Positions 17,866 through 20,399 of a stretch of DNA of 20,399 bases are shown here, one piece after another. A model generated the notes under the pieces. That model was not told the DNA's origin, ran no database searches, and saw only the letters and a list, made by a program, of their open reading frames with translations. This DNA comes from a virus. The position numbers and the translations under genes are program-made. The DNA is taken from positions 1-20,399 of the IMG/VR virus record IMGVR_UViG_3300034082_002350; one strand, given 5' to 3'. The stretch's first letter is position 1; every line of letters starts with the position of its first letter.

Positions 17866-17895
17866 ATTGTATCATTAAGATATGCTGCCTGTCAA
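17866..17895 (-). promoter_or_regulatory. Strong sigma-70-type promoter for the secreted-protein gene
   Basis: On the minus strand TTGACA (17895-17890), an 18-nt spacer, then TACAAT (17871-17866) with a TGA extension directly before it (17874-17872). This is a perfect -35, a five-of-six -10 and an extended -10 together, the strongest promoter-like sequence here. The expected start leaves a leader of about 20 nt that includes the GGAG site. The -35 lies inside the last codons of the HNH gene. Confidence 0.75.
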
Positions 17896-18150
17896 CCTAT
17901 GATAAGTTCTTATTCTATGGCAGTTTGCACAAACAACTTCACACTTTTCAATTTCTTTTTTAATTGATTTCCATGAAAAACCATCATGTATCATTCTTGA
18001 GATATTGTATTTTTTGTCTCTTAGATGGTCAAAATCTAAGATAATATGATTATTGATTCCACAATCAATGCACCCAGAGTCTTCTTTAATTTTTGCAAGT
18101 CTTTTTTTATACTCTTGCTTATTATAATGGTCTAACTCTTTGTCAGTCAT
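17875..18150 (-). CDS. Small HNH endonuclease
   Basis: A 91-residue free-standing HNH nuclease. SGCIDCG (Cys27, Cys30) and VVCANCHRIR (Cys74, Cys77) form the structural zinc site. DFDHLRDKKYNISRMI (39-54) holds the catalytic D-x-D-H with His42 as general base, and N76-x-H78 completes the H-N-H set. The N-terminal helix (NKQEYKKRLAKIK) is basic. ATG 18150 is preferred over TTG 18159, because the extended -10 at 18159-18167 would start transcription at the ATG. It could act in genome packaging, as a mobile nuclease, or in defence against rivals. It follows a structured RNA candidate and its 3' end carries the -35 of the next gene. Confidence 0.85.
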   Translation of the reverse strand: MTDKELDHYNKQEYKKRLAKIKEDSGCIDCGINNHIILDFDHLRDKKYNISRMIHDGFSWKSIKKEIEKCEVVCANCHRIRTYHRLTGSIS

Positions 18151-18158
18151 TAAATACA

Positions 18159-18167
18159 ATTATATCA
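18159..18167 (-). promoter_or_regulatory. Extended -10 for a leaderless HNH transcript
   Basis: TG-A-TATAAT on the minus strand (18167-18159) ends 8 nt before ATG 18150, with no ribosome site between, so transcription should begin 0-2 nt from the start codon. No good -35 is visible. It lies 11 nt after the closing stem of the RNA candidate at 18179-18257, so the HNH message need not include that element. Confidence 0.6.
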
Positions 18168-18178
18168 GTGTGTATAAG

Positions 18179-18257
18179 CCCTACACAGGTATTCCAAGCA
18201 CTTAAGCCAGGGAATATATAGAAAGGTAACTACTCCATCCCAAGGTCCTGTGTAGGG
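18179..18257 (-). ncRNA. Structured RNA candidate closed by an 11-bp stem
   Basis: In the gap between hsp20 and the HNH gene, CCCTACACAGG (18257-18247 on the minus strand) pairs perfectly with CCTGTGTAGGG (18189-18179), closing a 57-nt interior. Inside, TATTCC (18216-18211) pairs with GGAATA (18195-18190) around a 15-nt loop that contains the palindrome CTTAAG, a possible kissing contact. A TATAAT at 18272-18267 lies 7 nt before position 18260, so a minus-strand transcript would begin at the foot of the stem. There is no U-run after the stem, so it may be either a processed small RNA or a leader element. It does not resemble a tRNA. The minus strand is chosen on the promoter; the stem itself is symmetric. 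Identity unknown. Confidence 0.55.
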
Positions 18258-18272: not shown

Positions 18273-18689
18273 CTACTTGATCTTAATAGACTTAGGCTTC
18301 TTTTCTTCTGGAACTATTCTATCAATATGAATTGTTAGCATACCGTCCTTAAGTTCAGCACCAGTAACTTCCATGTATTCACCAAGAGCAAATGTGCGGG
18401 TAAATTTACGACCAGCAATCCCCTTATGAACAACTTCAGCATCTGTTACTTCTACAAGTTCTCCCTTAATGACAAGAGATCCATTATCAACGGAAACATC
18501 AATGTCATCTTTTGAAAATCCTGCTACTGCAAGAGATAGTTTATATGTATCTTCATCTAATTTAAGAAGATCGTATGGAGGATAAGATTGAGAGTTTGTT
18601 CTATGTGCATTATTAAGTCTGGCCAACTCTCTATTCCAGCCAATAAAAAAAGGATCATTAAATAGATCCATAGTTAGGTTTGTTACCAT
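18273..18689 (-). CDS. Small heat-shock protein (Hsp20, IbpA-like)
   Basis: A 138-residue alpha-crystallin-type chaperone that holds unfolding proteins in solution without ATP. Seen: the start of the domain YPPYDLLKLDEDTYKLSLAV (36-55), AGFSKDDIDVSVDNGSLVIK (56-75), HKGIAGRKFTRTFALGEYME (88-107), and the G-x-L motif as DGMLTIHI (115-122), with a VPEEKKPKSIKIK tail that carries the I-x-I oligomer contact (I135-K-I137). This order, notably G-I-A-x-R-x-F-x-R-x-F, is the IbpA/B type common in bacteria and in cyanophages. ATG 18689 has GGGG 8-11 nt upstream. It is the first gene of the minus-strand block, with a TG-C-TATAAT promoter at 18748-18756. It may protect virion or polymerase proteins during infection. 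Confidence 0.9.
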   Translation of the reverse strand: MVTNLTMDLFNDPFFIGWNRELARLNNAHRTNSQSYPPYDLLKLDEDTYKLSLAVAGFSKDDIDVSVDNGSLVIKGELVEVTDAEVVHKGIAGRKFTRTFALGEYMEVTGAELKDGMLTIHIDRIVPEEKKPKSIKIK

Positions 18690-18777: not shown

Positions 18778-19719
18778 ATGGAAACGCAGTATAAATACTC
18801 AAATAAAAAAGAATATATGCACAGTAGTGGTCCAATACCAATTTTTGAATTGTCTGATTTTAAAATTATAAATAATGACAGCAACATTATTAAAAATTTT
18901 AATGGATTGTATTTTCCAGTTTTTTATGGCGTTAACTATGCATTACTACTAAATGACTATATTGGCACATTTTTAAAATTAAAAAAAGATTATCCAGATT
19001 TAAAGATTATATTTTTTACATCAAAAAATTTAAAAAATATAGTAAATAAACCAGGTTTTGAAATAGCGTCTGATGATTTTATAAAATATTTTAATTGCGA
19101 GTTAGTTGATGTTGACACAGACAATTACTTTTTTGATAAAATTATACTTACCGAAGGTGACTTGCCAGTTATTCCACATCACATATATTCTGGAAGTCAG
19201 TGGAGGTATAATGAACTATCAGAACCCGTAAAGTATTGGTGGTGTGATTCTTTAAAAGAAATAACAAATTATTTTAATAAAGAACTATTTGACCTTGAGG
19301 GGAAAAAATTATACATAACAAGAAAATTTGTTAATAAAATATATCATTCTAAAAATGATTCCTGGAGTATTAAAAGAAGACATGATGTTATGTATGATGA
19401 TTTATTTGAAAATGAATTAATTAAAAATAAATATTTTGTTTTTGATGGAAACGGTGAAGGATTTTTTAAACAAATAAATTTATCCTACAATGCAAAAATT
19501 TTTGTTTCAATTGAGGGAAGTTCTTTTTTTAATGCAATCTGGTGTAAAGATGAAACTCCAATAGTTGTAATTAAAGTTAAAGATGACTATACATTTTACC
19601 ATGCAGAACTTTTAAGAATGCTTAACAAAAAAAATGTTATAGAAATAGATGTTTCTAAGATGAACCCAAAAGATGGAATTAGTTTTATTATAGAAACAAT
19701 AAATAAAATTATTGAATAA
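18778..19719 (+). CDS. GT61-like (DUF563) glycosyltransferase
   Basis: A 313-residue protein with a GT61-type C-terminal half: KLYITRKFVNK (177-187) corresponds to the family's 'L-Y-I-x-R', FVFDGNGEGFFKQINLSYNA (220-239) to the E-x-x-x-F-x-x-Q-I block, and IFVSIEGSSFFNAIWC (241-256) to the H-G-A-x-L-x-N-x-x-F block, with E-G-S in place of the usual H-G-A. This change may affect activity. The N-terminal half has WWC and repeated Asp/Tyr. It is distinct from the transferase at 1533-2303. It begins leaderless and ends in an 11-nt overlap with the converging carbamoyltransferase gene, with no terminator. It likely belongs to the same glycan pathway. Confidence 0.6.
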   Translation: METQYKYSNKKEYMHSSGPIPIFELSDFKIINNDSNIIKNFNGLYFPVFYGVNYALLLNDYIGTFLKLKKDYPDLKIIFFTSKNLKNIVNKPGFEIASDDFIKYFNCELVDVDTDNYFFDKIILTEGDLPVIPHHIYSGSQWRYNELSEPVKYWWCDSLKEITNYFNKELFDLEGKKLYITRKFVNKIYHSKNDSWSIKRRHDVMYDDLFENELIKNKYFVFDGNGEGFFKQINLSYNAKIFVSIEGSSFFNAIWCKDETPIVVIKVKDDYTFYHAELLRMLNKKNVIEIDVSKMNPKDGISFIIETINKIIE

Positions 19720-20399
19720 TTTTAAAGTTATATTCTTTTTCCCATTTTAAAATATCCGCTTTATCATTTAAAAGTGGTTGGCCTTTAATATTTAAACTAG
19801 TATTTAATAATATTGGAACCCCCGTAATAGCATACCAGTTTGACAATACTTTGTATAAACCAGGATGTTGATTTCTGTTTACGGTTTGAACTCTTGAAGT
19901 TCCATCTTTATGAACAACTGATGGTATTTTTTCTGGCTGCAAACATTTAACCGTATACTGCATATATGGAGAATCAAAATCCATATCAAACCACCTATCT
20001 GCATATTCTTCCATTACAACAGGTGCAAATGGTCTGAACAACTCTCTTTGTTTAATTAAATTAACCTTATCTTTAATATTTAAATCTCTAGGATCAGCCA
20101 AAATACTTCTATTGCCAAGTGCTCTTGGACCATATTCCGCTCTTCCACTTGCTACGGCTACAACTTTATCTCTAATTAAGTTGGTAACTATTTCATTTAC
20201 TGGATATTCCCCGCCTAAATCGTGACCTAAATATGGACCTTTCCATTCAATATGCTTACCGTATAGTGCTGCTGCTGCTCCTAAAGAACTTCCAGCATCG
20301 CCTGGGTTTGGCATAATCCAAACATCGCCAAATATATTCCACAACAATGTATTAGCGGAAGAATTTAAAGCACACCCACCCATGAATACAAGGTTATCT
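19709..20399 (-). CDS. Carbamoyltransferase, NodU/CmcH family (5' partial)
   Basis: The C-terminal part (about 229 residues) of a carbamoyltransferase; the frame runs off the right edge. FMGGCALNSSAN and IMPNPGDAGSSLGAAAALYG belong to the kinase-like domain, and ASGRAEYGPRALGNRSILAD with RELFRPFAPVV to the C-terminal domain, both near-invariant in NodU, CmcH and TobZ. The enzyme uses carbamoyl phosphate and ATP to put a carbamoyl group on a sugar or similar hydroxyl. Together with the transferases and FkbM enzyme this points to a decorated glycan. Visible sequence is intact. It overlaps the GT61-like gene tail to tail by 11 nt. A start at 20383 is not right because the conserved motif continues upstream. 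Confidence 0.92.
   Translation of the reverse strand, partial: DNLVFMGGCALNSSANTLLWNIFGDVWIMPNPGDAGSSLGAAAALYGKHIEWKGPYLGHDLGGEYPVNEIVTNLIRDKVVAVASGRAEYGPRALGNRSILADPRDLNIKDKVNLIKQRELFRPFAPVVMEEYADRWFDMDFDSPYMQYTVKCLQPEKIPSVVHKDGTSRVQTVNRNQHPGLYKVLSNWYAITGVPILLNTSLNIKGQPLLNDKADILKWEKEYNFKIIQ

Follow-up and report, generated by a model that had tools for sequence, protein, structure and literature searches.

A candidate small RNA gene, apparently with its own promoter, between hsp20 and an HNH nuclease gene in probable actinobacterial phages

A stretch of 79 nt on the minus strand (18257..18179) of a virus record of 20,399 bases, the whole of which is here called the window, appears to encode a previously uncatalogued phage RNA of about 80 nt, apparently with a promoter of its own. 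Judged from sequence comparison, the element is quite probably an independent RNA gene. With less assurance, we favor the fuller statement that low-GC actinobacteriophages carry it in single copy as a stand-alone gene for a small RNA, that its product acts in trans, and that an HNH nuclease gene has docked behind it. The element would thus represent a compact, well-supported RNA family in probable actinobacterial phages that is absent from Rfam, and suggests that small structured RNAs cluster beside tRNA and hsp20 genes, with HNH nucleases docked at RNA genes.

In the window, the minus-strand order is hsp20 (18689..18273, Pfam PF00011), the element, and then the HNH endonuclease gene (17875..18150, start codon ATG at 18150, PHROG 2255/3106), which is a neighbor and not a part of the RNA. 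The perfect 11-bp inverted repeat described in an earlier note, CCCTACACAGG at 18179-18189 and CCTGTGTAGGG at 18247-18257 around a 57-nt interior (18190-18246), was confirmed in the sequence. No open reading frame of 50 aa or more spans the gap, in agreement with the statement that nothing there encodes protein. A second, 6-bp hairpin reported inside the repeat (TATTCC/GGAATA, 18190-18195 and 18211-18216, with a CTTAAG loop) is present in the window but restricted to near relatives; since relatives generally lack it, it lies outside the conserved structure. The TATAAT noticed near the foot of the stem is likewise present (minus strand, 18272-18267, directly behind the hsp20 stop codon at 18275-18273), but the spacing is 9 nt and not the 7 nt given. 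Considered alone, the window is only moderately unusual: the fold z-score is a modest -2.5 or so on both strands, and other perfect inverted repeats of 11-12 bp, rich in AT, occur in it too. Near its far end, the window also carries the C-terminus of a carbamoyltransferase (19709-20383), which adjoins a glycosyltransferase gene (18778-19719).

In the predicted RNA, the two ends pair as a stem, P1, with CCCUACACAGG as the 5' arm (18247..18257, minus strand) and CCUGUGUAGGG as the 3' arm (18179..18189, minus strand); the latter, placed by sequence and alignment, probably marks the 3' end region. A comparison over related phages, which the earlier note had proposed as a check, found compensatory changes in P1: all 11 pairs were formed in 28/28 aligned diverse copies, and two-sided changes occurred in 10 of the 11. 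Versions of P1 include CCCCACACAGG, CCCUACACAGG, CCCCAUACAGG, CCCCGCAUAGG, CCCCGCAUGGG, CCUCACGUAGG and CCUCACGCAGG, each with its pairing partner. Counted over the whole structure, there were 36 double-change cells versus 6.6 in shuffles. Paired cells amounted to 96.9% versus 29-58% in slid controls, and each measure exceeded both the 500 shuffles and every slid control, no measure being equaled by more than one shuffle. This comparative evidence makes a strong case that the hairpin is real. Departures from Watson-Crick pairing, collected from 38 distinct P1 stems of which two are chance matches, were 13 G.T versus 3 A.C, an excess that favors an RNA of the minus strand.

The same variation bears on a reading at the DNA level, in which the element serves the HNH nuclease as a site for cleavage or recombination, or is a palindrome bound by a protein, the latter having been listed as an option in the earlier note. 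An HNH gene does adjoin most copies, and relatives of the window HNH adjoin conserved RNA genes. However, the sequence of P1 varies widely while its pairing is kept, which sequence-specific DNA binding does not require, and copies without HNH, near different genes, exist. We therefore regard a DNA-level role as quite improbable.

P1 would clamp a core consisting of a P2 hairpin with loop NNUAGUUA, a P3 hairpin, and UGAA and CCUU joints. Near-invariant positions in this core are CCUU-RG-(N)GAUGG-NN-UAGUUACC and GGC-N4-GUGCYUGAA. The first segment reads CCUUGG-GAUGG-AG-UAGUUACC in the window (18225..18245, minus strand) and contains P2, formed by GAUGG and CC..AUU around a conserved loop; the second contains P3, formed by GGC and GCU and followed by a conserved UGGAA/UGAA segment (18197..18208, minus strand). 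Because the first set of relatives was baited with the CCUU-UAGUUACC segment, conservation of the first segment is partly built into that set. An independent search with P3 and the tail only recovered new copies (L344-L346, L348-L350, L352, L354-L358, L360 and L361), all of which have the core, with small departures in L346, L352, L355 and L357 and in L349. These copies scored 57-88 bits with the model R1. Partition-function averaging supported P1, and more weakly P2 (GAUGG with CC.AUU) and P3 (GGC with GCY). The evidence for P2 and P3 is mainly conservation, with little covariation; in P3, 83% of cells are paired.

Three known motifs that resemble parts of the core were considered and rejected: a K-turn or C/D box (UGAUGA/CUGA), as many copies read GGGAUGG or AGAGAUGG; a CsrA GGA site, as GGA is missing from the AGNGAUGG class; and, for the resemblance of GAUGG, a fluoride riboswitch, which gave no Rfam match.

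During infection, the RNA may act in trans: its invariant segments would bind a partner, either a protein or a second RNA, while P1 would serve as an exchangeable clamp and shield both ends. The combination of an invariant core and a covarying clamp offers clear and cheap mutants and probes toward the partner.

A promoter with its -10 box at the end of hsp20 would start the RNA approximately at the foot of P1. Of 135 distinct flanks, 118 have a -10 match of at least 5/6 in the 30 nt that precede P1 (null, 27%). Behind the 3' arm, P1', a perfect TATAAT occurs in 125/135 distinct flanks, in most cases 14-18 nt beyond the stem, and in 121/135 the start codon of the next gene is 7-10 nt behind the -10 box; most of the loci in these counts, and in the neighbor counts below, come from related phages and are hence not independent. 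Upstream of the element, the -10 boxes match the consensus less closely than downstream. Together, the downstream TATAAT and the ATG that closely follows it suggest that the next gene is leaderless and has its own promoter, and thus that the RNA is not its leader. In the window, the HNH gene has an extended -10 element, TGATATAAT (18159..18164, minus strand), with the ATG 8 nt behind. The arrangement of TGnTATAAT followed by ATG after 7-10 nt, seen at 18159-18164 and in relatives, also suggests that leaderless genes are frequent in these phages. No -10 box separates the element from another small RNA, element C, in copies that lie directly behind the latter, and these copies may be processed from a joint transcript.

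These observations weigh on the reading as a cis-acting leader, in which an aptamer-like core with P1 exerts riboswitch-like control over the downstream gene, P1' hiding or freeing its start. In riboswitch aptamers, a P1 that covaries freely and begins approximately at +1 typically closes an invariant core, and the element has the same design. Consistent with such control, an HNH gene lies downstream in 136/153 loci, and in L083, L235 and L249 the HNH ATG lies inside P1'. A cis-riboswitch belongs to the 5' leader of its target gene, however, and outside the L083 group this is not what was found, given the near-perfect TATAAT between P1' and the ATG. Unlike the genes behind riboswitch aptamers, those behind the element are leaderless with their own promoter and mutually unrelated, several unrelated genes being preceded by it. 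The suggestion that the element is a leader of the HNH gene lost further ground with the finding that the element and HNH can each be found without the other. We consider a cis-acting leader rather unlikely.

A role as terminator, or as insulator of the next gene from hsp20, with P1 stopping upstream transcription, appears unlikely as well. The 11-bp stem behind a gene is GC-rich, and U-rich stretches follow P1' in some members; but a terminator needs neither a conserved 57-nt interior nor an invariant core, and hsp20 and the stem are separated by a -10 box. Furthermore, a scan for Rho-independent terminators with loops of up to 8 nt found none on the minus strand at the P1 stem. A canonical U-tract terminator was not found behind P1' either, so that the RNA 3' end, which we place near P1' of a discrete RNA, is a guess.

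The neighbors of the element vary. Apart from the 136 loci with HNH, downstream genes are structural, glutathione-peroxidase-like or others; upstream, hsp20 is found in 122/153 loci, and PstS-like, FmdB-like or other genes in the remainder (names other than HNH and hsp20 are our own reading of the sequences). Variable neighbors, covariation, a -10 box of its own and a separate promoter for the next gene all support the suggestion, made in the earlier note, of a phage small RNA.

The HNH protein is about 91-94 aa long, and its PHROG matches are to HNH families only; a Pfam match of the gene to cytochrome c552 is probably spurious. Relatives with about 50% identity are found in tRNA clusters of Streptomyces and Mycobacterium phages, with Microbacterium phage Jera as a case in which the relative is not in a tRNA cluster. 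In one viral contig (L231, 2434-2534), an HNH relative directly follows tRNA-Asn, and its TATAAT and leaderless start repeat the layout behind the element. As relatives are mostly beside tRNA genes in cultured actinophages, the HNH gene probably docks beside small-RNA genes, and would treat the element like one of them. Behind the RNA gene, it is probably a free-standing mobile nuclease; that it may use the RNA gene as a target does not conflict with a stand-alone RNA. In phage T4, SegB is reportedly a free-standing homing endonuclease in the tRNA region (Brok-Volchanskaya et al., 2008, PMC2330249, cited in PMC10448857). The likeness is that of a nuclease gene in or beside a cluster of small-RNA genes, as HNH relatives here adjoin tRNA genes, whereas SegB belongs to another nuclease family, GIY-YIG, and homing by the HNH protein is putative.

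Most members have a structured RNA immediately upstream of a compact HNH gene, which also recalls the HEARO or omega RNAs, obligate partners of RuvC- and/or HNH-bearing proteins of the IscB/IsrB type, and the element might accordingly be the RNA partner of the HNH protein. Against this, the protein is small and has only HNH domains to judge from its PHROG matches, the association is not obligatory in either direction, no variable guide lies beside the RNA, the element differs in size, and no Rfam match was obtained, the HEARO covariance model included. A role as partner of the nuclease is thus very improbable, and docking of the nuclease behind an independent RNA gene is preferred.

At least 164 distinct viral contexts contain the element, and 82 different interiors occur among those collected; a search with the core pattern returned at least 120 stretches and another pattern at least 119. 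Among 80 viral loci in which the gap was anchored on hsp20, it was present in 27 and otherwise absent behind hsp20. Whole phage records with a strong match have one copy each. A blastn search of INPHARED with the element gave no match, and a pattern search of about 85,000 bacterial and archaeal genomes gave no credible match. The only seven hits in these genomes scored 13-21 bits with R1, had no obvious P1 and lay in several cases in apparent coding sequence; they look like chance, their number being approximately that expected by our own estimate.

The statement that the element matches no known RNA class holds as far as Rfam 15, in which a scan at gathering and at relaxed (E ≤ 10) thresholds yielded no match to it. 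Neither ARAGORN nor Rfam identified it as tRNA or tmRNA. In two papers on freshwater actinophages (PMC10202952, PMC6802176), a keyword search found no mention of such an RNA; both give whiB as an actinophage marker. A WhiB gene in the window therefore points to an actinobacterial host, and the carrier phages probably infect actinobacteria. The closest kind of known RNA is that of GOLLD and ROOL, ornate orphan RNAs of phages and prophages that are hundreds of nt long and lie near tRNA islands (PMC12286853). Like them, the element is a structured noncoding orphan RNA from phages and lies near tRNA genes at some loci, but it has 79 nt and no Rfam match to either model.

A second arrangement, type B, was found in 23 contigs of related phages (7 distinct sequences). 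Here a core, CCUU.GGAUGGUGUAGUUACC, runs straight into the 3' arm of a 13-bp stem that covaries. The 5' arm of this stem precedes AUNCC and a GUGCAG hairpin, and in most cases tRNA genes begin within a few bases downstream. Rfam searches of type B returned only the adjacent tRNAs and miRNA models at chance level. Homology of its core with that of the element described above (type A) is likely, and type B is possibly type A in circularly permuted form. The type B segments were not reported by an nhmmer profile built on the 3' segment of type A, and a 9-nt motif was not significant (P 0.07-0.5), so that the permutation relies only on the 21-nt core that both types share, the 13-bp stem next to it and AUNCC/GGAU pairing. 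We tentatively raise the possibility, on balance doubtful, of a portable RNA module with two topologies: free-standing in type A, with P1 between UGAA and CCUU, and permuted in type B, with P1 behind UUACC, as the 5' piece of tRNA operons. If true, phages would be keeping beside their tRNA genes an RNA receptor or catalyst of a new kind.

Other small RNAs may lie in the same region. A tiny RNA resembling an H-type pseudoknot (for example GACACCUGAGCAUGUGUAUAAACUGCUC) is found behind hsp20 in approximately 37 of the 80 anchored loci, for instance at L023 3414-3480 and L006 3414-3480; both of its stems appear to covary, and it has no Rfam match. Another compact element, NGUCGGGGGAGACAGCGACN-UAAAUACCUGGCAU, whose outer pair varies, lies directly before type A in L022 (2440-2470), L192, L223 and others; it is often joined to type A with no promoter between, and is not in Rfam. 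Further structured-looking sequences in the gap behind hsp20 are CUGCACCCCUUCAUCGGGGAGUCGCAG (L028 3405-3460) and ACGGAUGCUCCCCUGAUGGGAG... (L039 960-1050); Rfam hits of the neighboring RNAs, CUGCACCCCUUCAUCGGGGAGUCGCAG included, were at chance level only. ARAGORN also identified phage-encoded tmRNA genes in two of the contigs (L089 8144-8387 and L212 8677-8901).
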